Assembly: GCA_900143615.1 (NCBI GenBank)
Contig: FREU01000004.1
Coordinates: forward strand, 1-64,000
DNA from: Rhodobacteraceae bacterium Alg231-30
Lineage (GTDB): Bacteria > Pseudomonadota > Alphaproteobacteria > Rhodobacterales > Rhodobacteraceae
Length of the DNA stretch: 64,000 nt
Direction of reading: 5' to 3'
In this document: one piece after another, positions 1,090-12,972 of the stretch
Position numbering within the stretch: position 1 is the stretch's first letter
How the letters are laid out: every line of letters begins with the position of its first letter
The notes under the pieces: generated by a model
Databases searched by the model: none
Told to the model about the DNA's origin: nothing
What the model saw: the letters and a program-made list of their open reading frames with translations, nothing else
Made by a program: the position numbers and the translations under genes

Positions 1090-2361
1090 TTAACGCCTAC
1101 CCTGATCGACCTTAAGACCACTGGGCACAGACGCAGGGATTCCCATGCGGCCCGAAAGAGCCGTTGGATCGCTGAGCGTATTGAGGAAAGCAATGATATC
1201 GGCGACATCACGATCAGACAGGGGCGGCAATGAGATATCCACGAAGCGGGAGCGCCGCGCCGTCTCGCGTGCATTGGACAGGATCAGAAAGTCGACCTTC
1301 TTCAGATGTGCCACCTCAGGCAGCAGGGGCATGTCACGCGACCATGTGGCCGCGCCCAAAACAGGATCGCGGTGATGGCCAATCATGTCTTCCAAAGTCC
1401 GGTACGACCCATTGTGACCATAAGGGCCAGTATGGGCCACGTTGCGCAGCATGGGCGTGCGAAAGCGATAGGCATCCTCAAGCGCGTCGCTTTCCCCCAT
1501 GCGCCCCACGTCCCGCGCCATCAGATCAAACTTGCGCGTCCGACCCGGACCAAAAGCCGGAAGGCCCAGCGCATGGAACTGCTGATCACTCAGCAGGGTG
1601 CCTGCATGACAGGTGCTACAGCCAACCTCTCCCATAAACAGCTGCATGCCACGCATGGCCTGAGGCGGCAGCTCGGCAATCTCGCCGCGCAGATAACGAT
1701 CAAATGCACTGTCGATGCTTTGAAACTCATGGGCCATAAAGGCTGCCAGCGCATTGGCGATCTCGACAATGCTCACATCCTCAGGACGGTCGATATGGTC
1801 AAAGGCCGCCACAAAGCGCGCACCGTACTCTGGAATGATCCGCACCCGTTTGGCCAGAATGGGCCAGCCGTTATCAATCCGGTCGTTCACAGCCCCCGCG
1901 ATTTCGTTTTCCTCAACATCACCCGCCATCTCGGTCTCTGATGTCATCGGGAACAGCGCCTGCGCGGCCAGCACCGAATCCAAACCCTGTGGCAGCCATT
2001 CTTCGGCAGGGGTGTTAAAGCGGGTGCCATACATATCGTCTTCGCTGATGCGCCCGTCATGCATCACCTTATCAATCGAGCGCGCGCCGAGGTTCCAAAG
2101 TGCGGGTGCGTTGCGTGGCACACGACGTTTGATGTGGTCTGCCGGACGGCGATCCGGCCCCAGACCTTCGCCGCCCTCACCCAATCCAAGCGACAGGCCG
2201 TCAGATGTGCCAAAATCGGGATGATGACAGGTGCCACAGCTAATATTGCGGTTGCCTGAAAGAATCTTGTCGTAGAACAATAGCTGACCCAATTCGGCCT
2301 GTTTCATATCCACAGGCGGGAAGTCCGCCGCCGTCAGTGGCGCGGGTAACTCTTGCGCCAT
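1090..2361 (-). CDS. Di-haem cytochrome c peroxidase family protein
   Basis: Periplasmic MauG/CcpA-type protein of 423 residues from the ATG at 2361. Two c-type haem motifs are visible, CGTCH (residues 42-46) and CSTCH (248-252), the layout of bacterial di-haem peroxidases, which reduce hydrogen peroxide with electrons from cytochrome c. The C-terminal half also has the family-typical FRTPMLRNVAHTGPYGHNG segment. The start is uncertain: the 17 codons before ATG 2361 encode a signal-peptide-like hydrophobic stretch ending PLMAQE, but no ATG, GTG or TTG precedes it until deep inside the antisense of the divergent Sel1 gene. The open frame to 2841 is therefore mostly antisense noise. The family call is secure; the true N-terminus is not. 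Confidence 0.85.
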   Translation of the reverse strand: MAQELPAPLTAADFPPVDMKQAELGQLLFYDKILSGNRNISCGTCHHPDFGTSDGLSLGLGEGGEGLGPDRRPADHIKRRVPRNAPALWNLGARSIDKVMHDGRISEDDMYGTRFNTPAEEWLPQGLDSVLAAQALFPMTSETEMAGDVEENEIAGAVNDRIDNGWPILAKRVRIIPEYGARFVAAFDHIDRPEDVSIVEIANALAAFMAHEFQSIDSAFDRYLRGEIAELPPQAMRGMQLFMGEVGCSTCHAGTLLSDQQFHALGLPAFGPGRTRKFDLMARDVGRMGESDALEDAYRFRTPMLRNVAHTGPYGHNGSYRTLEDMIGHHRDPVLGAATWSRDMPLLPEVAHLKKVDFLILSNARETARRSRFVDISLPPLSDRDVADIIAFLNTLSDPTALSGRMGIPASVPSGLKVDQGRR

Positions 2362-2409
2362 CAGCGGTGCGGCGAAAACGATGGGGAGCAGAGACAGAGG
2401 GAGGGATCT

Positions 2410-2886
2410 GTGAGACGACTTATGGGAGCAGCCGCATTCATTATGCTGGCCAGCGGCGCGATGGCCGAAATAGAAGCAGCGCGTGATCTGATGGACGCAG
2501 GCCGCTTTGAAGAGGCGCGCGAGGCGCTGATGCCTGCGGCGATTTCCGGCAATGCCGACGCCGAAGAGCTGATTGGTGTGATGTATGCGATGGGGCTGGG
2601 GGTGGAGCGCGACGATGTGCGCGCCTTTGAATGGTATCTGCGCAGCTCGCTCAAAGGACATCCCGGCGCGCAATCCGGCATCGGTTGGTACTACGAGGTT
2701 GGCCGCGGCATGCCCGCGCCGGACCTGACGCGGGCCTATATGTGGTACACATTGTCCGCCATCGGCGGTGACCCTGATGCGGCGATCAGCCTTGAGGAAG
2801 TGGTCAAGAAGATGACGCCGGAGCAGATCGAAAAGGCCCATATATTAGTCGCCGATTACAAGAGCTGGATGTATCCGTTCCGTTGA
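2410..2886 (+). CDS. Sel1-repeat (TPR-like) exported protein
   Basis: 158-residue protein. The start is the GTG at 2410, preceded by a good ribosome site (GGGAGGG about 5 nt upstream), and it gives a signal peptide (RRLMGAAAFIMLASGAMA, then EIEAARDL). The mature part has Sel1-like repeats with the characteristic A..GN..AEELIGVMYAMGLGV, AFEWYLRSS, GHPGAQSGIGWYY and AYMWYTLSA helices, so it is probably a periplasmic protein-interaction scaffold. No specific partner can be named. It is divergent from the peroxidase gene, and the two starts nearly abut. An upstream in-frame ATG at 2353 would destroy the signal peptide and was rejected. Confidence 0.8.
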   Translation: MRRLMGAAAFIMLASGAMAEIEAARDLMDAGRFEEAREALMPAAISGNADAEELIGVMYAMGLGVERDDVRAFEWYLRSSLKGHPGAQSGIGWYYEVGRGMPAPDLTRAYMWYTLSAIGGDPDAAISLEEVVKKMTPEQIEKAHILVADYKSWMYPFR

Positions 2887-2911
2887 ACGGGCTGAAAAAT
2901 GTAGTTTGACG

Positions 2912-2944
2912 TAAAAAGGGCGTCGGGATCAAACCCGACGCCCC
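2912..2944 (-). terminator. Intrinsic terminator of the TRAP/monooxygenase operon
   Basis: Perfect 10-bp stem (2918-2927 GGGCGTCGGG with 2934-2943 CCCGACGCCC), 6-nt loop. On the minus strand the stem is followed by TTTTT (plus 2913-2917). It lies just after the dctP stop and would end the minus-strand operon. Confidence 0.85.
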
Positions 2945-2950
2945 AATTGT

Positions 2951-4012
2951 TTATTGAACGTCCGCGCCGCGTGCGGCCGCAATATCAGCTTCGGCAGCCG
3001 CAACCGCATCAGTCAGGGCTGTGAAGATCTCATCCCCACGGGTCACGTTGCCTTTGAACCAGTCATAGACAGGCGCCGCTGCTTCTTTGAAAGCGGCCTT
3101 CTCGTCTGGTGTTGGCACATAAAGGTCACCACCACCGGCAACAAAGTCTTCATAAGCCTGGATCGACTTACGCTTGGGCGAGGCAAATGTGGCCTGCTGC
3201 AAGGCGTAGAAGCCATCGACAACCACGCGACGCATGTCTTCCGGCATCGCCATGAAGTTCTGGTTGCTCATCCACCACAGCGCACCCATGTAGGCGTGAC
3301 CGTCCAGCGTGACATACTGCAGACCGGCATCCGGGAATTTCATGCCCATGATGTCGGTGATGCCGTTTTTAGAACCTTCCACAACACCGGTCTGGAACGA
3401 TGTGAACAACTCAGGCCATGGGATCGGCGTTGGAGATGCACCCAGCGCCTTGACCAGTTCCTGTGGCAGGTCGGCAACCACGGTGCGGATCTTCAGACCT
3501 TCCATATCAGCCGGTGCTGCCACACGGCGTTTGGTGTTGGCAAAGTTGCGCCAGCCGCCGGTGTTGCCGATGGTCATCAGACGAATGCTATCGCCGCTGT
3601 CTTCCAGCGCCATCGCCCGCATCTGACGGGTAAAGTCGCCGGACAAAACATGCTCGGCCACGCGGTCGTCGGCCATCAGATACGGCAGATCAAGCACCTG
3701 CACATATGGGAACAGACCCGAAGCACCGCCCGAAGTCGAGATGTAGACGTCGATTGAGCCATCCGCGACACCTTGCAGACATTCCGCACCGTTTGAGCAC
3801 AGCTGGGTGCCGATGAAGAGTTCGACTTCGATGGCGCCGTTTGAAGCGGCTTCGACGTAGTTTTTGAAAACCACCAGACCATCATAGTCTTCGTCATTTT
3901 CGTTCGAGTTGGCAGTGGCGCGAATTTTGTAATCTGCGGCCACGGCGCTTGTCGCCAAGCTCCCCGCCACCAGCGCGGCGGCCGTTGCGGTTTTGATGAA
4001 CTCCTTGAACAT
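2951..4012 (-). CDS. dctP: TRAP transporter substrate-binding protein (DctP family)
   Basis: Periplasmic solute receptor of a tripartite TRAP importer, 353 residues. A Sec signal peptide is clear (MFKEFIKTATAAALVAGS, cleavage after VAA). The DctP core has the conserved ADMEGLKIRT segment around the ligand-coordinating arginine and the FTSFQTGVVEGSKNGITD motif. AGGAGG lies directly upstream of the ATG. Its partners dctM and dctQ lie immediately upstream in the same operon, and a strong terminator follows it. The ligand cannot be read from sequence. The neighbours (a two-component FMN monooxygenase and an AKR) suggest an organosulfonate or sugar-sulfonate, possibly sulfoquinovose or its glycoside; this is inference. 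Confidence 0.93.
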   Translation of the reverse strand: MFKEFIKTATAAALVAGSLATSAVAADYKIRATANSNENDEDYDGLVVFKNYVEAASNGAIEVELFIGTQLCSNGAECLQGVADGSIDVYISTSGGASGLFPYVQVLDLPYLMADDRVAEHVLSGDFTRQMRAMALEDSGDSIRLMTIGNTGGWRNFANTKRRVAAPADMEGLKIRTVVADLPQELVKALGASPTPIPWPELFTSFQTGVVEGSKNGITDIMGMKFPDAGLQYVTLDGHAYMGALWWMSNQNFMAMPEDMRRVVVDGFYALQQATFASPKRKSIQAYEDFVAGGGDLYVPTPDEKAAFKEAAAPVYDWFKGNVTRGDEIFTALTDAVAAAEADIAAARGADVQ

Positions 4013-4050
4013 GCTTTATCCTCCTGTTGCGCAGTTCGTTGTTTTCTTGG

Positions 4051-5343
4051 TTATTCAGCGAACCCAGTTAGTCTGGGTACGGTCATGGATATTTCGGGGA
4101 TGAAGGTGATTAAGAATATCACGATCACCTCAACCATCAGGAATGGCAGAATGGCGCGGGCGATGGTGGACACGCGTTCGCCCGACACGGCCGCCGCCAC
4201 AAACAGCACCAGCCCCATCGGCGGCGTGGCCAGACCCACGGTCAGGTTCACACACATGATGATGGCAAAATGGATCGGATCAATGCCGAGGCTGATAAAG
4301 ATCGGCCCCAAGATGGGTCCGAGAATGATAATCGCGGGGCCAGCGTCCAGAAACATACCCACCAGAAACAGCAGCAGGTTGATCAGGAACAACAGCACCA
4401 GCGGGTTTTGCGTCAGCGACAGCACAAACTCGGCCATATGCTCGGGCGCATGACTTAGGCTGACGACGGTTTTAAACGACATCGCCGCGCCTACCAGCAA
4501 TAGCACCACAGCCGAGGTCAGCCCCGCGCGGGTCAGAACATCGGGCAGCTCGCTCATCTTCAGGGTCTTGATGACAAACAACCCGATGAACAGCGCATAA
4601 GCCACAGCAATCGCGGCGGCCTCAGTGGGGGTAAAGACCCCGCCCAAAATACCGCCCAGAATGATGACTGGTGTGAGCAACGGAAAGAACGCGCGCAGGC
4701 TGGCCTTGCCTCGTTCGGGCCATGTGTATTTGCGCGACGCAACGGGGAAATCATAACGATCCGCCATGACCTTGATCATCAGCATCAGACCCACGCCAAC
4801 CATGATACCCGGCACAATGCCTGCGAGGAACAAGGCCGCAACGCTTTCGCCCATGACATAGGCATAGATAATCATGATGCCCGAGGGCGGGATGATCGGG
4901 CCGATGACCGAACTGGCGGCGGTAATGGCGGCGGCAAACTTGCGGGAATAGCCCTGTTTCTCCATCGCGGGGATCAACATCGAGCCCAGCGCCGAGGTAT
5001 CCGCCACAGCCGAGCCTGACAGCCCAGCAAACAGGATCGAGGAGAGCACATTCACATGTGCCAACCCGCCGCGCAGATGGCCGATCAACGCTTGGGAAAA
5101 CTCCACCAGACGGATGGTGATGCCACCGCGGTTCATCAACTCGCCCGCCAGCATGAAGAACGGGATCGCCATCAAGGGGAAGCTGTCCATGCCGTTATAG
5201 AGGTTGCGATAAAGCAGCGTGATGTCACGCTCTTGTCCGCCCAGCCACAGAATGGCACCCGGCGCGGCAAGCAGCGCAAAGAACACCGGCAGGCCAACCA
5301 TCAACAGAACGAGAAAGAGCGGAAGGAACCAAATCAACATCAC
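4051..5343 (-). CDS. dctM: TRAP transporter large permease (DctM family)
   Basis: 430-residue polytopic inner-membrane protein, the ion-coupled transport subunit of a TRAP system. Family signatures include IPFFMLAGELMNRGGI, GLSGSAVADTSALGSMLIPAM and IIPPSGIMIIYAYV. Length and the dozen or so hydrophobic segments fit the DctM/SiaM family. Its start overlaps the dctQ stop by 4 bp (ATGA), so the two subunits are translationally coupled. The order dctQ-dctM-dctP is complete, so this is a functional-looking importer. Confidence 0.94.
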   Translation of the reverse strand: MMLIWFLPLFLVLLMVGLPVFFALLAAPGAILWLGGQERDITLLYRNLYNGMDSFPLMAIPFFMLAGELMNRGGITIRLVEFSQALIGHLRGGLAHVNVLSSILFAGLSGSAVADTSALGSMLIPAMEKQGYSRKFAAAITAASSVIGPIIPPSGIMIIYAYVMGESVAALFLAGIVPGIMVGVGLMLMIKVMADRYDFPVASRKYTWPERGKASLRAFFPLLTPVIILGGILGGVFTPTEAAAIAVAYALFIGLFVIKTLKMSELPDVLTRAGLTSAVVLLLVGAAMSFKTVVSLSHAPEHMAEFVLSLTQNPLVLLFLINLLLFLVGMFLDAGPAIIILGPILGPIFISLGIDPIHFAIIMCVNLTVGLATPPMGLVLFVAAAVSGERVSTIARAILPFLMVEVIVIFLITFIPEISMTVPRLTGFAE

Positions 5344-5930
5344 TCACTCCTCGCCGAATTTGCATAGTCGGGACTTGGCAGCAATTCATCGCGGCCAGAA
5401 TAGCTCAGCAGATTGCGGATGATTAGCTCAACATTCACCAAGATCAGCAACCAGACCCCCACCAACAACGACATCATCATCCAGCTGCGCGGGATACGGT
5501 ACCAGCTATCAAAGCTAAAAGAGGTCGGCAGATACAGCGACGCCGTGGTGAAGCGCCCGCCAATACCGGTCACTTCTTTAAAGCCGATCTGTGCTGCCAT
5601 CAGCAGCACGACCAGACCAATAATCATCAGAAACAACTGCAACACACGAAGAATGTTAGACGGCAGCAGGGTCTCGACTGTGTCGATGGCAACAAAGCTG
5701 CCATTGCGCAGCGCTGTGGGCGCCATCAATCCGGTCATCCAGAGCATGCAGAACCGCGCTGCCTCATCCGGCCACGGTAGGGCCGAGTTAAGCACATAAC
5801 GAAAGAACACCTGAATCAGGATTGCCGCCACCATAATAGCTATGGCAACGACCCCAATGGCGCGTCCAACACGAAGCAGGCGTGAATTGATCCAATCCAG
5901 CACCCTTGCGAGCGCAAGCAATGCGTCCAA
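5340..5930 (-). CDS. dctQ: TRAP transporter small permease (DctQ family)
   Basis: 196-residue inner-membrane protein with four predicted helices, the small subunit that scaffolds DctM. The family motif around LPWPDEAARFCMLWMTGL and the following GSFVAIDTVETLLP are typical of DctQ. It is encoded between the flavin reductase (39-bp gap) and dctM (4-bp overlap) on the same strand, so the importer and the catabolic enzymes are probably one transcript. Confidence 0.92.
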   Translation of the reverse strand: MDALLALARVLDWINSRLLRVGRAIGVVAIAIMVAAILIQVFFRYVLNSALPWPDEAARFCMLWMTGLMAPTALRNGSFVAIDTVETLLPSNILRVLQLFLMIIGLVVLLMAAQIGFKEVTGIGGRFTTASLYLPTSFSFDSWYRIPRSWMMMSLLVGVWLLILVNVELIIRNLLSYSGRDELLPSPDYANSARSE

Positions 5931-5968
5931 ACGTTATCCTCCCTAAACGCCCCTCCCAGAGCGTCCTC

Positions 5969-6490
5969 CTAGTTTACGGCGATGGTCCCCATCTGGCCTT
6001 TAAAAAACGCCAAGGCGTCGCCGTCCTCTTTCACCTCTGCGCGCATCACTTCGCCCAGCACGATCGCATGATCTCCTCCATCATAGACCGCGCGGCGACT
6101 GCATTCGAAACGCGCCAGACACTCTCGCAGGATTGGCACGCCCTCGTTATTGATCTCCAGCGGCAGCTCGCGCAGCCCATAGGCATCTTTGCTGATCTGA
6201 AAACACAGATCGCTCTGATCGGCGCCCAACACGTGGATGGCGTAATGCTGCGCGCCCTCAAAATGCGGAAAACGGCGCGAGTTGCGATCCGGCGACCACA
6301 ACACCAGCGGTGGCGTCAGCGAAACAGATGAAAAGCTGCTGGCCGTGATGGCGATTGGTCCCTGCTCGGACGCTGCGGTGACAATGGTCACACCCGTGGC
6401 AAAGCGTCCAAAGGCATCGCGCAACAGACGGGTGTTGTCTGCATCCGGCACAAAGCTGCGCCGCGTGGGGGCAAATTCATGCAACGACAT
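5969..6490 (-). CDS. FMN reductase component of a two-component monooxygenase
   Basis: 173-residue flavin reductase of the HpaC/RutF/DIM6-NTAB type. It uses NAD(P)H to make reduced FMN and hands it to a partner oxygenase. Signatures are RLLRDAFGRFATGVTIVTA, ITASSFSSVSLTPPLVLWS and HYAIHVLGADQ. The start is the ATG at 6490, which overlaps the AKR stop as TAATG; an upstream in-frame ATG at 6535 lies inside the AKR gene and was rejected. The obvious partner is the SsuD-like monooxygenase two genes upstream. In the known sulfo-SMO pathway SmoA has this role; that equivalence is inferred from context. Confidence 0.88.
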   Translation of the reverse strand: MSLHEFAPTRRSFVPDADNTRLLRDAFGRFATGVTIVTAASEQGPIAITASSFSSVSLTPPLVLWSPDRNSRRFPHFEGAQHYAIHVLGADQSDLCFQISKDAYGLRELPLEINNEGVPILRECLARFECSRRAVYDGGDHAIVLGEVMRAEVKEDGDALAFFKGQMGTIAVN

Positions 6491-7380
6491 TACGCAACCT
6501 CCTGACCTAACGCGGCCTCGTACAATTTGAACCAAGTGGGCCGATCCAGAGAAACCTTCAGGGCATCACTGATCCGCGCGATCCGCTCGATGTTGTTGGT
6601 GCCCATCACCGGCAGGATTTTGGCCGGATGGCGCAACAGGAACGCCACGGCAACCGCCGCGCGGTCAACACCCTGATCGGCTGCAATCGCATCTAAGCGA
6701 TCCGCCAATATGCCGGATGCGGTCATCAACCCGCCGCCACCCAGCGGCGACCACGCCATCAGCGCATCGCCCTGTTGCTGGTGAAACGCCAGATCGCCAT
6801 TGGTAAACGGCGAAATCTCCGAGAGCGAAATCTCGATCTGGTTGGTCACCAGCTTGTTCTTCATCGCCGACTGCAGCAGCTTCCAATCCCACGGACGGAA
6901 GTTGGACACACCCACAGCGCGCACCTTGCCCGAGGCCACCAGATCATCCAGCGCAGCACCCGTTTCGTGATGGTCCATCAACGGATCAGGGCGGTGAATG
7001 AGCAGCAGATCGATATGATCAATCGCCATATCCCGCAGCGAGTGTTCAACCGAGGCTTCGATATGCGCGCGCGAGGTGTCGTAGTATTTGACGGTTGCAT
7101 CCGCATAACGTCCGGCGGGCGCAACGATGTCACATTTGGTGACAATTTCCATCTGGTTGCGCAGAGCCGCATTGCCGCGCAGCGCGTTGCCCAGAATGGC
7201 CTCGGCTGTATAGCCGCCATAAATGTCGGCCTGATCAAAGGTGGTGATCCCCTGATCCAGCGCGGTCTGAATTTTGCGGGTGACATGTTCTGGGGAGGTG
7301 TCAGTATCGTCACCCACGCGCCACATCCCGTAGATGAGGCGGCTGAAACTTAGGTCGTTATTTAGGTCTACGCGGTTCAT
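6490..7380 (-). CDS. Aldo-keto reductase, YdhF-like
   Basis: 296-residue NAD(P)H-dependent aldo-keto reductase. The catalytic tetrad is visible: Asp and Tyr in FDQADIYGGY, Lys in VTKCDI, His in LLLIHRPDP. It resembles E. coli YdhF along its whole length (HRPDPLMD, GVSNF, TNQIEISL, PIMGTNNIERI equivalents). It is coupled by TAATG overlaps to both neighbours: its start overlaps the monooxygenase stop and its stop overlaps the flavin reductase start. In the oxygenolytic sulfoquinovose pathway an AKR (SmoB) reduces 6-oxo-glucose to glucose; this gene sits where such an enzyme would. The family is certain; the substrate is inferred. Confidence 0.88.
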   Translation of the reverse strand: MNRVDLNNDLSFSRLIYGMWRVGDDTDTSPEHVTRKIQTALDQGITTFDQADIYGGYTAEAILGNALRGNAALRNQMEIVTKCDIVAPAGRYADATVKYYDTSRAHIEASVEHSLRDMAIDHIDLLLIHRPDPLMDHHETGAALDDLVASGKVRAVGVSNFRPWDWKLLQSAMKNKLVTNQIEISLSEISPFTNGDLAFHQQQGDALMAWSPLGGGGLMTASGILADRLDAIAADQGVDRAAVAVAFLLRHPAKILPVMGTNNIERIARISDALKVSLDRPTWFKLYEAALGQEVA

Positions 7381-8534
7381 TAGCGGCGAACTCCGGCGGC
7401 AAGTGGGGTTGCAGGCGCTGCAGCAGGCACACGGCCATAGGCCTGCGGCAGCGAGCAGGTTTTCATCTGAGGCAGCACGCGGCTGCCAAAATGTTTGGCT
7501 TCGTCAATGTGCGGATAGCCTGACAGGATAAAGGCGCGGATACCCATCTTCTGATAGTTTTCCAACTTGCTCAGCACCTGATCGGTTGAACCAACCAGCG
7601 CCGCGCCACAGCCCGAGCGTGCACGGCCGACGCCAGTCCAAAGGTTGGGTTCGATATAGCCGAGATCATCGGCCACATCACGGTTCTTGGCCTGATGGCT
7701 GACGCCCAACGATGTCGCATCCAGTGCCCGTTCACGGATCGCGCGGCCCTGCTCGTCATCCAGTTTGGAGACAATATAGTCTGCATATTCGCGCGCCTCA
7801 GCCTCGGTATCGCGCACAATGACATGCACCCGCAAACCATAATCCAATGTGCGATTGTACCGTTCTGCCACCGCATTCACGGCTTTCATCCGGCCAGCCA
7901 GTTCTTCAACCTTTTCCGGCCACATCAGGTAAACATCACAATGCTCGCCACATAGCTCCAGCGCCGATGGGCTGTAGCCGCCAAAATACAGCAGCGGACC
8001 GCCAGTTTGATAGGGGCGCACCGGATCGGTAGTGAGGCCTGCAAAATTATAAACCTGTCCCGCGTGATTGATTTCATCGCGCGTCCACGCCTGCTTGAGG
8101 ATCTCAACCACTTCGCGCGAGCGCTGATAGCGGTATTCGCTGTCCGCCTTCTCGCCCGGAAAGTCGGACGAGATGATGTTGACGGTCAAACGCCCTTCGA
8201 GCATGTGGTCCAGCGTGGCAATGGTGCGCGCCAGCATAATCGGCTGCATTTCCCCGCACCGCACAGCGGCAAGCATGTTGATCTTGTCGGTGATCGGTGC
8301 ACAGCCTGCCACAAAGGACAGCGTGTCTTGGCCAACCTGATAAGACGACGGGCACAGGATATTGCGAAACCCCTGATCCTCGGCGGTTTTCACAATGTCG
8401 GAACAATGCTTCCAGGAAGAGCGCAGATCCCCATCCGGCATGCCCAGAAACTGATAGTCATCCGAGCAGAGCGCGGAAAACCAGGACACTTCGGCCGCGT
8501 CCAGATCCGGTGATGTGATGGGAACAACGCTCAT
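7380..8534 (-). CDS. LLM-class FMN-dependent monooxygenase, SsuD-like
   Basis: 384-residue TIM-barrel flavin monooxygenase of the alkanesulfonate monooxygenase group. SsuD-type signatures are TLDHMLEGRLTVNIISSD, EVVEILKQAWT, GGPLLYFGGYSPSALEL and the C-terminal ILSGYPHIDEAKHFG. Such enzymes take FMNH2 from a separate reductase and cleave C-S bonds, releasing sulfite and an aldehyde. The start is the ATG at 8534, with GGGAGG 6 nt upstream; an earlier in-frame ATG at 8597 falls in the regulatory region. It is the first gene of the minus-strand operon. With the reductase, YdhF-like AKR and Gfo-fold protein beside it, it is a candidate sulfoquinovose monooxygenase; other sulfonates remain possible. 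Confidence 0.85.
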   Translation of the reverse strand: MSVVPITSPDLDAAEVSWFSALCSDDYQFLGMPDGDLRSSWKHCSDIVKTAEDQGFRNILCPSSYQVGQDTLSFVAGCAPITDKINMLAAVRCGEMQPIMLARTIATLDHMLEGRLTVNIISSDFPGEKADSEYRYQRSREVVEILKQAWTRDEINHAGQVYNFAGLTTDPVRPYQTGGPLLYFGGYSPSALELCGEHCDVYLMWPEKVEELAGRMKAVNAVAERYNRTLDYGLRVHVIVRDTEAEAREYADYIVSKLDDEQGRAIRERALDATSLGVSHQAKNRDVADDLGYIEPNLWTGVGRARSGCGAALVGSTDQVLSKLENYQKMGIRAFILSGYPHIDEAKHFGSRVLPQMKTCSLPQAYGRVPAAAPATPLAAGVRR

Positions 8535-8583
8535 AAATTTCCTCCCAGAAAGCGTTCCAATTTCCACTTGCGTAGCAGCCGCT

Positions 8584-8608
8584 TTGATGTAAATCAATGG
8601 TGCATCAA
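8584..8608. promoter_or_regulatory. Nested palindromes between monooxygenase and GntR genes
   Basis: TTGAT-GTAA-ATCAA (8584-8597) is an exact match to the FNR/FnrL consensus TTGAT-N4-ATCAA. It is nested with a wider repeat TTGATG (8584-8589)-N13-CATCAA (8603-8608). It lies 50 bp upstream of the monooxygenase start and 28-52 bp upstream of the GntR start. It could be an oxygen-responsive FnrL site or the operator of the adjacent GntR protein; sequence alone cannot decide. Confidence 0.5.
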
Positions 8609-8635
8609 TTTTTTCCGCGACAAGGCGTCACACCT

Positions 8636-9346
8636 ATGAAGCCCCCCAAAGACACGCCCACGGCCCTGCCAATTTACTTGCAGATCAGCGAGACGCTGAG
8701 CCGCGAGATTGCCGCTGGCCGTCTGGCAGACGGTGAACGCCTTCCACCCGAACGCGAACTGGCCAAACAATATGGCACCACCGTGCGCACCCTGCGCAAA
8801 TCCCTTGATAAGCTCGCAAACGAAGGTTTTCTGAAACGCATTCAGGGCTCGGGCAACTATGTGCAGCACAAGCCTGACGCCAAGAGCATCTATTCGATGT
8901 TTCGCCTTGAACTGCACGGCGGCGGCGGCCTGCCCCATGCTGACATTCTGGACGTGACCGAGTTGGACAAACCCGCAGACCTGCCAGAATTTGGCACATC
9001 AGACCGCGGTACCCGCATCCGGCGGCTGCGCTATCTGGATCAAACGGTGATCGCGGTCGAGGAAATCTGGCTTGATCGCAACAGCGGCGCCATCGCGCCT
9101 GAAGCGCTGTCTGATTCGCTCTATCGCTTCTATCAGATGAAGCTGGGCTTCTGGATCACACGGGCCGAGGATCGCGTGTCGATTGACACGGTTCCGGACT
9201 GGGCGCCCGACGCCTTTGGCAAGGCTGCGGGCACAACCACCGCCTATATCGAACGCTTTAGCTGGGCGCAGGAGGCCGCTCCGGTCGAGTTTTCACGCAC
9301 ATGGTATGACACGGACAAGGCGCTGTATATTCAGCGTCTGATTTAG
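8636..9346 (+). CDS. GntR/HutC-family transcriptional regulator
   Basis: 236-residue repressor-type protein. The N-terminal winged helix-turn-helix (LPIYLQISETLSREIAAGR, LPPERELAKQYG, TVRTLRKSLDKLANEGFLKR) is followed by a UTRA effector domain (about residues 80-235). I place the start at ATG 8636, giving the usual short lead into the wHTH; ATG 8597 would put the start inside the palindrome. The gene is divergent from the monooxygenase operon and 9 bp upstream of the Gfo-fold gene, so it probably senses a pathway sugar or sulfonate and controls both transcripts. Confidence 0.9.
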   Translation: MKPPKDTPTALPIYLQISETLSREIAAGRLADGERLPPERELAKQYGTTVRTLRKSLDKLANEGFLKRIQGSGNYVQHKPDAKSIYSMFRLELHGGGGLPHADILDVTELDKPADLPEFGTSDRGTRIRRLRYLDQTVIAVEEIWLDRNSGAIAPEALSDSLYRFYQMKLGFWITRAEDRVSIDTVPDWAPDAFGKAAGTTTAYIERFSWAQEAAPVEFSRTWYDTDKALYIQRLI

Positions 9347-9355
9347 GGAGCGAAA

Positions 9356-10465
9356 ATGGCACAGACCATTCACTATGGCATCATCGGCTGCGGCATGATG
9401 GGGCAGGAACATCTGCGTAATATCGCGCTGCTGGACGGCGCAAAAGTCAGCGCGATTTTTGAACCAGACGGCGAAATGGCCGCGCGCAGCCAGACGATTG
9501 CGCCAGAGGCCACTCTGGTGGACAGTATCGACAGCTTGCTGACAATCGACACACTGGATTGTTTGCTGATCGTCAGCCCGAACTACCTGCATGTCGATCA
9601 GTTCGCCCAGATCGCCGCGACCCGCCCCCTGCCGTTGCTGATCGAAAAGCCGCTGTTCACCAACGCGGATGACGCAACACGGCTGGACGATATTCTGGCG
9701 ACCTATCCCGCCCCCGTCTGGGTGGCGATGGAATACCGCTATATGCCGCCGGTCGCTGCGTTTTTGAAAGACGCCCAAGCGGTCACAGGCGGCATTCGCA
9801 TGCTCAGCATCCGCGAGCACCGTTTTCCCTTCCTTGAAAAGGTCGGCGACTGGAACCGCTTTAATGATCAGACCGGCGGCACCTTTGTGGAAAAATGCTG
9901 CCACTTCTTTGATTTGATGCGCCTGACATTGGGATCAGAGCCGGTTCAGGTCATGGCCAGCGGCGGGCAGGATGTGAACCATCTGGATGAGGCTTACGGT
10001 GGACGCCCCAGCGACATCTTGGACAACGGCTATGTGATTGTGGATTTCGAAAACGGCGCACGCGCGATGTTAGAGCTGTGCATGTTTGCCGAGGGCGCGC
10101 AGTATCAGGAAGAGATCACCGCCGTTGGCGCACAGGGCAAGATCGAATGCCTTGTACCCGGACCGGGACGGTTCTGGCCGGATCATTTGGGCGCCGCGCC
10201 AACCCCGCAGCTGATCGTCAGTCCGCGCAATCCAAAAGGCCCTGAAAAACGCGACATTCCGGTGGACCCCACCCTGCTGGAAGCGGGCGACCACAACGGA
10301 TCAACCTTCTATCAACACCAAGGTTTTCTGGAACTGGTGCGCGGGCAACGCGCTGCACCCGATGTCTCTGCCCAAGACGGCAAAATTGCAGTCCTCATGG
10401 GCATGGCCGCGCAGCGGTCCATTGCAGAAAAACGCGCCGTCGCCATGTCCGAGATGACAGGATAA
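9356..10465 (+). CDS. Gfo/Idh/MocA-fold NAD(P)-dependent enzyme (possible sulfoquinovosidase)
   Basis: 369-residue protein with an N-terminal Rossmann fold (YGIIGCGMMGQEHLRN) and the family LIEKPLF motif near residue 100. The C-terminal Gfo domain includes MLSIREHRFPFLEKVGDWN and GGTFVEKCCHFFDLMR. Members are sugar dehydrogenases, but some, such as GH109 and the NAD-dependent sulfoquinovosidases (GH188), use bound NAD to hydrolyse glycosides. Beside a candidate sulfoquinovose monooxygenase, a role in releasing sulfoquinovose from its glycerol glycoside is attractive, but I cannot tell glycosidase from dehydrogenase by sequence. AGGGAG lies before the ATG. It is cotranscribed with the GntR gene. 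Confidence 0.85.
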   Translation: MAQTIHYGIIGCGMMGQEHLRNIALLDGAKVSAIFEPDGEMAARSQTIAPEATLVDSIDSLLTIDTLDCLLIVSPNYLHVDQFAQIAATRPLPLLIEKPLFTNADDATRLDDILATYPAPVWVAMEYRYMPPVAAFLKDAQAVTGGIRMLSIREHRFPFLEKVGDWNRFNDQTGGTFVEKCCHFFDLMRLTLGSEPVQVMASGGQDVNHLDEAYGGRPSDILDNGYVIVDFENGARAMLELCMFAEGAQYQEEITAVGAQGKIECLVPGPGRFWPDHLGAAPTPQLIVSPRNPKGPEKRDIPVDPTLLEAGDHNGSTFYQHQGFLELVRGQRAAPDVSAQDGKIAVLMGMAAQRSIAEKRAVAMSEMTG

Positions 10466-10480
10466 ACAGCTCCCTCGCGG

Positions 10481-11443
10481 TCACAGCACCGCGAGGTTCT
10501 CCATCGCCCAGTTGGCGCGCCACACGGCGTCACTTGGCAGATCTTCGTCGGCTGCGATCAAATCATCCACCGCCTTGATGCGCGGAAACATCCCGCGCCC
10601 GTTGGCGACCTGAATGGCCAGACCGGGGCGCGCGTTCAGCTCAAGAACCTGTGGCCCCGCTACGCGATCCAACACCACATCAACACCCATATAGCCCAGC
10701 CCGCTGGCGGATTGGCAATGCGCGGCGAGTTCCATCAGTTCGGCCCATTTCGGCACAGCGATCTGGCTGAGGTCCGCGCCGGTGTCAGGGTGCTGCTCCA
10801 CGGGACGGTCATATTGCACCGCGCGCATCGCTTTGCCCGTTGCGATATCCAAACCAACCCCAACCGCACCTTGGTGCAGGTTGGCTTTGCCGTCCGAAGA
10901 CGCCGTGGACAGCCGCGTCATCGCCATAACCGGAAAGCCTTTGTAGACGATGACGCGAATGTCAGGCACGCCCTCAAAGGTATAGCCGTCAAAGACCGGA
11001 TCGAATTCGATCATCTCTTCGATCATCGCCACATCGTTTTTGCCACCCAGCGAAAACAACCCGCTGAGCGTGTTGTTGATGTGACGCGCCACTTCTTCAA
11101 ACGCCACGACCGCGCCGGAAGGCTTCAGATAGGCATCGCCTTCGCGCCCCGAGATCACCAAAATACCTTTGCCGCCACTGCCCTGCGCGGGCTTGATGAC
11201 GAACTTGGGATGGTCTTTCAAAAACGCAGCCAACTGGCGGATTTGCCCCGTCTGTCGCACCACCCCGATCAACTTAGGCGAGGCCAGCCCATGTTTGCGG
11301 GCCAGCTCTTTGGTCTTCAGCTTGTCATCCACCAACGGATAGAGCGCGCGCGGATTGTTCTGCGCGATCAGCTCGACATTGCGCCGGTTCATCCCGACGA
11401 TGCCGGCACGTCGCAGCGCAAAAGGAGACGCCCAGCGCAACAT
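10481..11443 (-). CDS. ATP-grasp alpha-L-glutamate ligase-like protein (RimK-related)
   Basis: 320-residue ATP-grasp amide ligase. Signatures are NPRALYPLVDDKLKTKELA, FVIKPAQGSGGKGILVI (ATP-binding lysine and glycine-rich loop), DIRVIVYKGFPVMAMTRLS and VLELNARPGLAIQVAN (Mg-binding Glu/Asn). The family attaches an amino acid, usually glutamate, to a carboxylate of a peptide or metabolite. Start: ATG 11443 overlaps the upstream stop as TGATG with CGGAG before it; a GTG at 11446 is the alternative. It is the last gene of a three-gene minus-strand operon with the 7TM transglutaminase-like and retropepsin-like proteins. The acceptor is unknown. Confidence 0.87.
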   Translation of the reverse strand: MLRWASPFALRRAGIVGMNRRNVELIAQNNPRALYPLVDDKLKTKELARKHGLASPKLIGVVRQTGQIRQLAAFLKDHPKFVIKPAQGSGGKGILVISGREGDAYLKPSGAVVAFEEVARHINNTLSGLFSLGGKNDVAMIEEMIEFDPVFDGYTFEGVPDIRVIVYKGFPVMAMTRLSTASSDGKANLHQGAVGVGLDIATGKAMRAVQYDRPVEQHPDTGADLSQIAVPKWAELMELAAHCQSASGLGYMGVDVVLDRVAGPQVLELNARPGLAIQVANGRGMFPRIKAVDDLIAADEDLPSDAVWRANWAMENLAVL

Positions 11444-12972
11444 CACTTAACTCCGCTCAGCGGCTCAAAGCGGCGCAACTCGCTCAGCCGGAAGCCGGTG
11501 TATTGGCCGATCATCAGGATCACAGCCAGCACCACCAACAGCAGTTCGGGGAAGGCGAAAGTCAGATAAGCCACCTGATTGTTTGTCATCACCAGATAGG
11601 CAATCACCGCCGTAAACAGGCTGCCGCCGCCCTGCATCAACACATCGCGCATGCCTTCCTCTTCAGCCAGAACCGACATCCGCTCAATCGTCCATGCGAT
11701 GATGATCATCGGGAAGAAGGTCACCGACAGCGCCGCCTCAAGCCCAAGCCGGAAACCGATCACCGACATCGCGAGATAGAGACAGATCACCACAATCAGC
11801 ACCGCCGCTATGCGCGGCACCAGCAACAGGTTGAGCGAGGACAGATACCCCCGGATCACCAGGCCCACGCCCACAATGGTCACAAACAACATCAATCCGG
11901 TGATCAGCTCGGTCTGGGTAAACACCAGCGCGATCAGGATCGGCATGAATGTCCCCGAAGTCTGCAAGCCCACAAGGTTGCGCAAAACCACTACCACCAG
12001 CGCGCCAATCGGGATCAGCAACAGCACCGCAAATGTGTTTTGCACATCCACCGGCAGCGAGAAAACCGACAGATACAAAGCCGACGAGCCATTGTTGCGC
12101 GCGGACTGAATCGCCAGAGAGCGCGCCGAAATCTGGTCTTCGATCACCGAGAACGACAGCTTGGAATTGCGCGCACCTTCGACCTCGTAAAGGAACTCGT
12201 CACCGCTCTGCCATGGCAGAAACTGTGCGGGCATTCCCGCCACGCGGGTGCGCGGGTCGATCACAACCCAGTTGTCGCCATCCCAAAGCTCGACCAGCGT
12301 TTCCAGATCCATCGCACGTTTGCTTTGGCCCAAGGTAAAACCACGCAGCGTGTGCGCAGGGATTTCCGCCGCGCGCAGCAGGCTCACAATCATTTCCGCG
12401 CGCAGTTTGTTGGTTGAGACTTCGCCCAACAGCGTGCGCACATTGGCGTCTTCTTTGGCGTGCATAATTGTGTCGCTCAGACGCAGCGCAAATCCAACCG
12501 CATCTGCCGAATAGCGATAGGCCTCTTCCAGCAACTCATCCGCCGCATCCGCGCCAACGCTGTCAAACGTAGGGGGCACGGGCAGCCCTTCTGGCTCTGG
12601 TCGTTTCGGGGGAAGCCCCCCACCTTTGTAAATGCGCGCACTGTAAATCAGGCGCACATCCCCCATCGGCCCGCGCGATTCCCAGACGCCCAAACGGTCG
12701 GTGCCGCTGGTCTCAACGTGAAAGCCAAAACCACGCGGAGCCGAGCCCTGATCCACCACATAGAGCGATTTGGTCATATCGGGCATATTGAGCTTCACCC
12801 GCGTCGGCTCGCCGGTGGTGCGCATTTGCACCTGTGCCTGCACGGTCCAGACCTGCTCTTGCTCGCCTGGGTTCAAAGGAAAGCCCAACAGCAGGTTTTT
12901 ATAGGCTGCAAAGCCAAGCCCAAGAACAAACAGAACGGTCACAATGACCCGCAGTTGAAGCTTCGGTGACAT
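11443..12972 (-). CDS. Inactive transglutaminase fused to a seven-helix membrane domain
   Basis: 509-residue membrane protein. One N-terminal helix (about residues 8-28) is followed by a periplasmic region with a transglutaminase-like fold (about 130-270, including LRAAEIPAHTLRGFTLG and LWDGDNWVVIDPRTRVAG). The position of the catalytic Cys before the AEIPAHTLRG strand carries no cysteine, so the domain is probably a binding module. The C-terminal half (about 300-500) has seven hydrophobic helices. This matches the described family of inactive transglutaminase plus 7TM proteins that occur beside RimK-like ATP-grasp ligases. It overlaps the ligase start and lies 1 bp after the protease gene, so it is strongly coupled to both. 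It could present or transport the ligase product. Confidence 0.87.
   Translation of the reverse strand: MSPKLQLRVIVTVLFVLGLGFAAYKNLLLGFPLNPGEQEQVWTVQAQVQMRTTGEPTRVKLNMPDMTKSLYVVDQGSAPRGFGFHVETSGTDRLGVWESRGPMGDVRLIYSARIYKGGGLPPKRPEPEGLPVPPTFDSVGADAADELLEEAYRYSADAVGFALRLSDTIMHAKEDANVRTLLGEVSTNKLRAEMIVSLLRAAEIPAHTLRGFTLGQSKRAMDLETLVELWDGDNWVVIDPRTRVAGMPAQFLPWQSGDEFLYEVEGARNSKLSFSVIEDQISARSLAIQSARNNGSSALYLSVFSLPVDVQNTFAVLLLIPIGALVVVVLRNLVGLQTSGTFMPILIALVFTQTELITGLMLFVTIVGVGLVIRGYLSSLNLLLVPRIAAVLIVVICLYLAMSVIGFRLGLEAALSVTFFPMIIIAWTIERMSVLAEEEGMRDVLMQGGGSLFTAVIAYLVMTNNQVAYLTFAFPELLLVVLAVILMIGQYTGFRLSELRRFEPLSGVK

Follow-up and report, generated by a model that had tools for sequence, protein, structure and literature searches.

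Gene content of the locus

We describe here a gene cluster at 2951-10465 of a 64,000-nucleotide stretch of DNA from Rhodobacteraceae bacterium Alg231-30 (the window), and propose that it is an operon for the utilisation of sulfoquinovose (SQ) of the sulfo-SMO (SQ monooxygenase) kind, equipped with a dedicated tripartite ATP-independent periplasmic (TRAP) importer; we put the probability of this reading at roughly 0.86. SQ is the sulfur-containing sugar in membrane lipids of plants and algae. It is estimated to be made and degraded at about 10 billion tons per year, and roseobacters are named as marine users of it, according to PMC10755693. A first-pass annotation, made from the sequence alone, had placed eight genes in the cluster, and all eight are present at the coordinates claimed for them, as judged from an open reading frame (ORF) check and Pfam; the expected Pfam family scores above cut-off in 8 of the 8 products. 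Six of the genes form a minus-strand operon in the order smoC-smoB-smoA-dctQ-dctM-dctP, followed by a terminator-like stem-loop. On the opposite (+) strand, divergent from smoC, a GntR-UTRA regulator gene is followed by a gene of the Gfo/Idh/MocA fold, with a gap of 9 bases by their coordinates. The features are listed below.

2951-4012, minus strand: dctP, TRAP solute-binding protein, proposed receptor for SQ or sulfoquinovosyl-glycerol (Pfam DctP, 172 bits)
4051-5343, minus strand: dctM, TRAP large permease (TIGR00786, 427 bits, above cut-off)
5340-5930, minus strand: dctQ, TRAP small permease (Pfam DctQ, 78.8 bits)
5969-6490, minus strand: smoA, flavin reductase for the supply of reduced flavin mononucleotide, FMNH2 (Pfam Flavin_Reduct, 115 bits)
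6490-7380, minus strand: smoB, aldo-keto reductase, proposed 6-oxo-glucose (6-dehydroglucose) reductase (PDB matches 7bby/7bbz, 420 bits)
7380-8534, minus strand: smoC, FMNH2-dependent SQ monooxygenase of the luciferase-like (LLM) type (PDB 7olf and 7oh2, 695 and 683 bits)
8597 or 8636 (alternative ATG starts) to 9346, plus strand: GntR-UTRA regulator (Pfam GntR and UTRA)
9356-10465, plus strand: sqgA-like sulfoquinovosidase of family GH188, dependent on nicotinamide adenine dinucleotide (NAD), Gfo/Idh/MocA fold (PDB 8zn9, 546 bits; 8qc2/8qc3, about 380 bits)
2944-2917, minus strand: terminator-like stem-loop 3' of dctP (11-pair stem, then a T run)
1090-2841, minus strand: MauG-like or cytochrome c peroxidase (CCP)-like di-haem protein (Pfam CCP_MauG, 119.7 bits; two CxxCH motifs)
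8535-8635, no strand assigned: divergent intergenic region containing a short inverted repeat (taken as far as the ATG at 8636)

The genes of the operon are tightly packed: TAATG overlaps occur at the smoC/smoB and smoB/smoA junctions, and dctQ and dctM share 4 bases by their coordinates. The overlap with smoB agrees with a start of smoA at ATG 6490; the mechanical ORF begins at TTG 6535. The receptor and both the small and the large membrane subunits of a TRAP transporter are encoded.

Predicted desulfonating enzymes and sulfoquinovosidase

The scores of the smoC product against 7olf and 7oh2 are followed by 188 bits for the next PDB entry, and it is 70-74% identical to these two structures, whose titles describe FMNH2-dependent monooxygenases for the oxidative desulfurization of sulfoquinovose; titles and identities were obtained through a fold search with a low-confidence SmoC model (predicted local distance difference test, pLDDT, 64.3). 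Identity to the MsuD and SsuD entries of the PDB is 19-32%; E. coli SsuD reaches 32% and RutA 21%. The first-pass annotation had staked its reading on the monooxygenase standing with the sulfonate enzymes rather than with other LLM proteins, and these identities place it there. Identities are used here instead of LLM-enzyme trees, which did not separate the groups: the trees contained few rows, and the branches of SsuD and RutA were very long. W205, R235, H237, R306, Y340 and H342 are common to the window SmoC and to the SsuD and SmoC rows, and differ in RutA; some of them we take to be active-site residues. The smoC product is predicted to be a flavin-dependent SQ desulfonating enzyme that would release sulfite and 6-dehydroglucose.

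An operon of the SsuD/MsuD/SfnG type, scavenging alkanesulfonates or other organosulfur compounds, would be suggested by NCBIfam, where the best family for the smoC product is FMNH2-dependent alkanesulfonate monooxygenase, below cut-off (242 of 518 bits). The gap between the two identity ranges given above led us to reject it, and both a GH188-like protein and a SmoB-like aldo-keto reductase lie in the same cluster; this alternative is close to refuted, and we regard it as scarcely credible. The smoB product scores highest against 7bby/7bbz, which we take to be SmoB, ahead of 7twz (214 bits) and YdhF (203 bits). smoB and smoC overlap, and so lie well inside the 10 ORFs within which SmoB and SmoC are encoded together in a sulfo-SMO cluster, as defined in PMC13372026.

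The first-pass annotation had noted that some sulfoquinovosidases are NAD enzymes of the Gfo fold, and the Gfo-fold product fits this well: 8qc2/8qc3, which it matches along with 8zn9, are SqgA structures of family GH188, and the indexed SQ-contact residues are kept. Using the contact residues of ArSqgA and their numbering from PMC10755693, we found that K98, Y127, R156, L160, K162, E179 and H183 of the window protein equal K107, Y136, R166, L170, K172, E189 and H193, respectively, so that the sulfonate-binding Arg166, Leu170 and Lys172 are kept as R156, L160 and K162. Residues were matched by index, with PDB chain numbering offset by 13. ArSqgA His321 corresponds to window H313 by the printed match line only and not by index, and Glu163 has no match by number and is not claimed as kept. 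PF01055 (GH31) finds no match in the host genome, whose record gives a completeness of 100%, so that the GH188 gene is the only visible sulfoquinovosidase of the host. Its product begins with a Rossmann motif and has no signal peptide by eye; therefore, its glycoside must enter the cell. It is predicted to cleave SQ glycosides in an NAD-dependent manner.

The combination of SMO and GH188 in roseobacters has already been published, and GH188 is described as near-universal in roseobacter SMO clusters by Kaur et al. 2023 (PMC10755693), with which the window shares SmoABC and GH188. The sulfo-SMO (sulfo-ASMO) system of Agrobacterium tumefaciens is also similar: one of the two solved SQ monooxygenases closest to SmoC carries A. 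tumefaciens in its title, and a SmoB-like aldo-keto reductase and a flavin reductase are found in one operon. The two systems differ in the importer, which is TRAP (dctQMP) in the window and of the ATP-binding cassette (ABC) type in A. tumefaciens, and in the sulfoquinovosidase, which is GH188 in the window and, as we take it, GH31 in A. tumefaciens. The ABC importer and the sulfoquinovosidase of A. tumefaciens are named in PMC9594981.

From the gene identities, the gene order and the GH188 contact residues, all of which sequence comparison establishes, a route can be proposed; its catalytic steps in this organism, the TRAP cargo, the regulator ligand and the fate of sulfite are what we infer. 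In the periplasm, the ligand of DctP would be SQ or, with greater likelihood, sulfoquinovosyl glycerol, which DctQM would import on an ion gradient. GH188 would remove the aglycone via NAD+-dependent transient oxidation at C3. With FMNH2 provided by SmoA, SmoC and O2 would cleave the C-S bond to give sulfite and 6-oxo-glucose, which SmoB would reduce to glucose. This is the sulfo-SMO pathway that the first-pass annotation had proposed, and the identity of SmoC and the GH188 contact residues speak for it. The divergently read GntR probably senses an SQ compound; an inverted repeat, TTGATG/CATCAA at 8584-8608 in the smoC/GntR divergent region, whose 6-base arms can be chance, is a possible operator for it.

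The TRAP importer and its probable cargo

The association of the TRAP genes with SQ genes extends over many relatives. At least 569 SmoC relatives exist, and the best 80 of them were compared, a set biased towards close loci. dctQ, dctM and dctP all lie downstream of smoC in 60 of the 80 loci, with a partial set in 4 and none in 16; because the full set recurs in 60 loci, a chance arrangement is not an issue. Ruegeria sp. TM1040, a laboratory strain, also carries this cluster. A family sample of 295 genomes, evenly drawn (thresholds: dctP E 1e-100, SmoC E 1e-100, GH188 E 1e-60), contained dctP in 102 genomes, SmoC in 124 and GH188 in 146. dctP lies less than 8 kb from smoC in 72 of its 102 genomes, less than 12 kb from GH188 in 88 and near either of them in 92. 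Across the 295 genomes, dctP and GH188 are both present in 97, dctP only in 5, GH188 only in 49 and neither in 144; for dctP and SmoC the corresponding numbers are 76, 26, 48 and 145. Ten dctP genomes have it near neither smoC nor GH188. Six of these loci were examined, and in the other four dctP is on a separate contig from both genes. Among the six, SmoA and/or SmoB are encoded beside dctP in L143, L145 and L147, a MauG-like gene is found in L146 and L148, and L144 (dctP 49%) lacks every gene tested. TRAP together with SMO is the majority arrangement in the family and no rarity, with dctP less than 8 kb from smoC in 72 of the 124 SmoC genomes.

The same dctP clade is also found with other catabolic cores. 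Under the heading pathway INDEPENDENCE, dctP lies close to GH188 in 20 genomes in which SmoC is absent at E 1e-100. A homologue of SQ isomerase is present at 18 of these 20 loci, and isomerase, kinase and aldolase together at 16; the three queries were taken from L099, which is itself one of the 20 and belongs to the window's own genus. L126 and L132 have no aldolase, and L130 and L136 have no isomerase, kinase or aldolase, L130 having SmoA and SmoB. The L099 locus encodes a DeoR regulator, dctQMP, a MauG-like protein, a PfkB kinase, a LacD-like aldolase, an SQ isomerase, GH188 and an epimerase. Such loci resemble sulfo-EMP (Embden-Meyerhof-Parnas) clusters with GH188: they share the dctP clade and GH188 with the window, and differ in having homologues of SQ isomerase, kinase and aldolase in place of SmoABC and, in L099, a DeoR-type regulator. 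Their GH188 proteins (L099, L103, L104, L124 and others) are 43-53% identical to that of the window. L150, which belongs to another class, combines SmoB, GH188, GntR-UTRA and dctP (68%) with a dioxygenase of the TauD type (PDB 9yut, 535 bits). This locus fits, by its gene content, the SqoD pathway as given in PMC12890257. It shares SmoB, GH188, GntR-UTRA and this TRAP transporter with the window, and differs from it in using a dioxygenase (sulfo-SDO type) where the window has SmoC and SmoA. L149 (G505 C21), with dctP at 49%, is possibly a sulfo-ED (Entner-Doudoroff) locus with the same kind of importer: it encodes an IlvD/Edd dehydratase and a TauE exporter, together with a GH188-like protein at 32%. 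Two loci are not counted as SQ loci: L107 (dctP 43%), where every SQ gene tested is missing, and L108 (dctP 38%), which has homologues of the kinase (40%) and the aldolase (65%) beside a dehydratase-like gene of the enolase superfamily, and at which SQ isomerase and GH188 were not found.

In a dctP tree of 70 rows, 60 fall into one clade (support 100/100, stem 1.79) that spans SMO, EMP-like and SDO-like loci; it does not include 3 of the 22 EMP rows, and some rows labelled "unknown" were so labelled without their flanks. Over the whole tree, locus labels change at least 5 times for SMO and at least 7 times for EMP on the starred branches. It would follow that the transporter was kept while catabolic genes were exchanged. 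Since the receptor stays constant while the core changes, SQ or its glycoside is the simplest cargo that all these loci could share.

The AlphaFold model of DctP (pLDDT 92.7) has the TRAP-receptor fold. When its Foldseek matches are ranked by E-value, the isethionate receptor IseP comes first (E 2.0e-26, root-mean-square deviation 1.9, 22% identity); IseP has the same fold, and its cargo is a C2 sulfonate and not a sulfosugar. Other fold matches bind sialic acid, sugar acids, ectoine and further ligands, and the sugar-acid receptor 7bbr ranks high. Naming the TRAP ligand by structure failed, since the fold matches bind varied ligands and the anchors R155, R176 and N216 are common to distant receptors. 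From the genomic linkage, the cargo is most likely SQ or its glycoside. Carriage of such a compound had been proposed in the first-pass annotation, and it gains weight from a linkage that is independent of the catabolic pathway. dctM occurs in two forms, a short one (430 amino acids, as in the window) and a long one (about 490-500 amino acids) with extra sequence in the middle of the protein (for example, L099 6453-7952 and L109 12211-13686).

It is conceivable that SQ is degraded here but enters otherwise, and that the TRAP transporter imports another co-occurring compound, such as a sugar acid, 2,3-dihydroxypropane-1-sulfonate (DHPS) or a short sulfonate. TRAP receptors mostly bind carboxylates, the rank of IseP and 7bbr among the fold matches points the same way, and at four SMO loci (L160-L163) with a MauG-like gene no adjacent TRAP or L022-type ABC match was found; the importer of these four is located elsewhere or is of another type. 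Against this stands the same dctP clade following GH188 across different downstream chemistries, for which SQ or its glycoside is the common compound, and we consider another cargo distinctly unlikely. A variant of our own proposal, in which TRAP imports free SQ only and GH188 serves glycosides arriving by another way, deserves somewhat more consideration although it too is improbable. According to PMC10755693, the earlier view was that roseobacters could use free SQ only, but GH188 lies close to this dctP in 88 of the 102 genomes, and an enzyme with no visible signal peptide requires its glycoside inside the cell. By this linkage, import of SQ or SQ-glycerol by TRAP is very probable.

Several points weigh against this reading. 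The Fisher values for dctP co-occurrence ignore the relatedness of the genomes. No such dctP is present in 48 of the 124 SmoC genomes, so TRAP is not needed for the SMO pathway. The three anchors and the TRAP fold are found equally in six distant dctP rows (37-41% identity), around which no homologues of SmoABC, GH188 or SQ isomerase were found. The SQ isomerase of L099 scores 252 bits against NF048012, below the cut-off of 700, so that "sulfo-EMP" expresses a likeness. The SmoC model is weak, as its pLDDT indicates. Finally, a PDB comparison at E 1e-10 gave no match for the ABC binding protein that occupies the TRAP slot in L022, described next, so this slot is not tied to the characterised SmoF importer.

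Among the 16 TRAP-less close SmoC loci, 6 have a binding protein of the L022 type in the TRAP slot (including L022 itself; L028 by a fragment only). Besides the ABC binding protein, the L022 cassette encodes a pair of permeases, an ATPase and a PF03601 exporter. The ABC receptor of pMaD9, sought as a tie to SmoF, matches two other sugar receptors in the PDB. In the window, a SmoEFGH-type ABC importer is absent from the cluster, with no ABC family among the genes called at 1090-11446, the rest of the genome not having been searched for one. L048 and L072 come from Rhodobacteraceae HIMB11 and a relative; in them, the place of TRAP is taken by an alpha-amylase-family gene and two genes for ABC permeases, and an ABC ATPase is there by similarity; Pfam was applied to L048 only, and L072 was assigned by blastp clusters. 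A putative sulfate exporter of the PF03601/YeiH type lies in or near clusters at L022 17476-18456, L109 17079-18104 and L170 13926-14885. The window's genome has no PF03601 exporter, other exporters not having been searched for.

We found no TRAP-type SQ importer in the literature by title and start of abstract, although Sharma 2022, Liu 2023, Ye 2023 and Ma 2025 may describe one. The covered main-text portions of PMC10755693 do not mention a TRAP importer, the words TRAP and tripartite do not occur in the available passages of PMC12890257, PMC13372026 and PMC9594981, and no papers citing the PDB codes were found in the literature. The uptake route decides the concentration and the form of SQ, free sugar or SQ-glycerol, that roseobacters can use. 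If the dctP clade is an SQ receptor, it would provide a pathway-independent marker of SQ uptake for marine genomes and metagenomes, and TRAP transport would be extended to sulfosugar glycosides.

The MauG-like di-haem neighbour

On one side the cluster is flanked by the MauG/CCP-like gene and a Sel1-repeat gene, and on the other by an alpha-L-glutamate-ligase-like gene. The frame at 1090-2841 runs into the divergent Sel1-repeat gene, and relatives match only about 1090-2355; by PDB comparison, its product is a distant relative of solved peroxidases and MauG. A MauG-like gene lies near dctP in 51 of the 58 SMO-TRAP loci with room for it, 2 more loci being too short to tell, and at 0 of the 16 SmoC loci without TRAP, in the stretches covered, some of which are short. 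In the family sample, a close homologue (E 1e-125) is present in 83 of the 295 genomes and lies less than 8.5 kb from dctP in 64 of them. By the same distance, the gene accompanies dctP in 44 of the 72 SMO-TRAP genomes and in 18 of the 26 genomes with dctP and no SmoC. In L099, it overlaps the start of the kinase gene by 4 bases.

A role as a partner of TRAP only is contradicted by 4 of the 48 SMO genomes without this dctP, in which the MauG-like gene lies less than 3.1 kb from smoC; the link therefore extends to SQ clusters more widely. The gene directly follows smoA in L160 and L161, and smoA is unlabelled in L162 and L163. In 3 of the 83 genomes (G889, G835 and G1021), it occurs with neither dctP nor SmoC. 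The link of the MauG-like gene to SQ clusters is thus strong and not exclusive. It could act, for example, on a form of the sulfolipid head group before uptake, or modify a partner protein. No related paper on SQ and cytochrome c peroxidase was found in the literature by title and start of abstract, and this recurrent neighbour points to a periplasmic step absent from the covered parts of the pathway literature.

The enzymes of the cluster are of a known kind and their arrangement is common; a portable importer and an unexplained di-haem gene add to its interest. As a tentative proposal, which we hold at less than even confidence when its two halves are taken together, dctQMP with GH188 may be a portable SQ uptake module, repeatedly joined to monooxygenase, isomerase-kinase-aldolase and dioxygenase cores, and the MauG-like enzyme may be a working periplasmic part of SQ utilisation.

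More distant relatives of the MauG-like gene were also seen. At L165 (53%), a flavin-reductase homologue adjoins it, and matches to SmoC, GH188 and TRAP were not found at that locus. Homologues at 45-49% are present in 12 of 22 genomes, and five places (L155-L159) were examined. In L155 and L159, the gene lies among genes of a xylose type by Pfam, for sugar ABC transport, an ROK repressor, and an FGGY kinase or an aldose epimerase. L155-L157 and L159 also carry an FG-GAP/ASPIC-UnbV protein.

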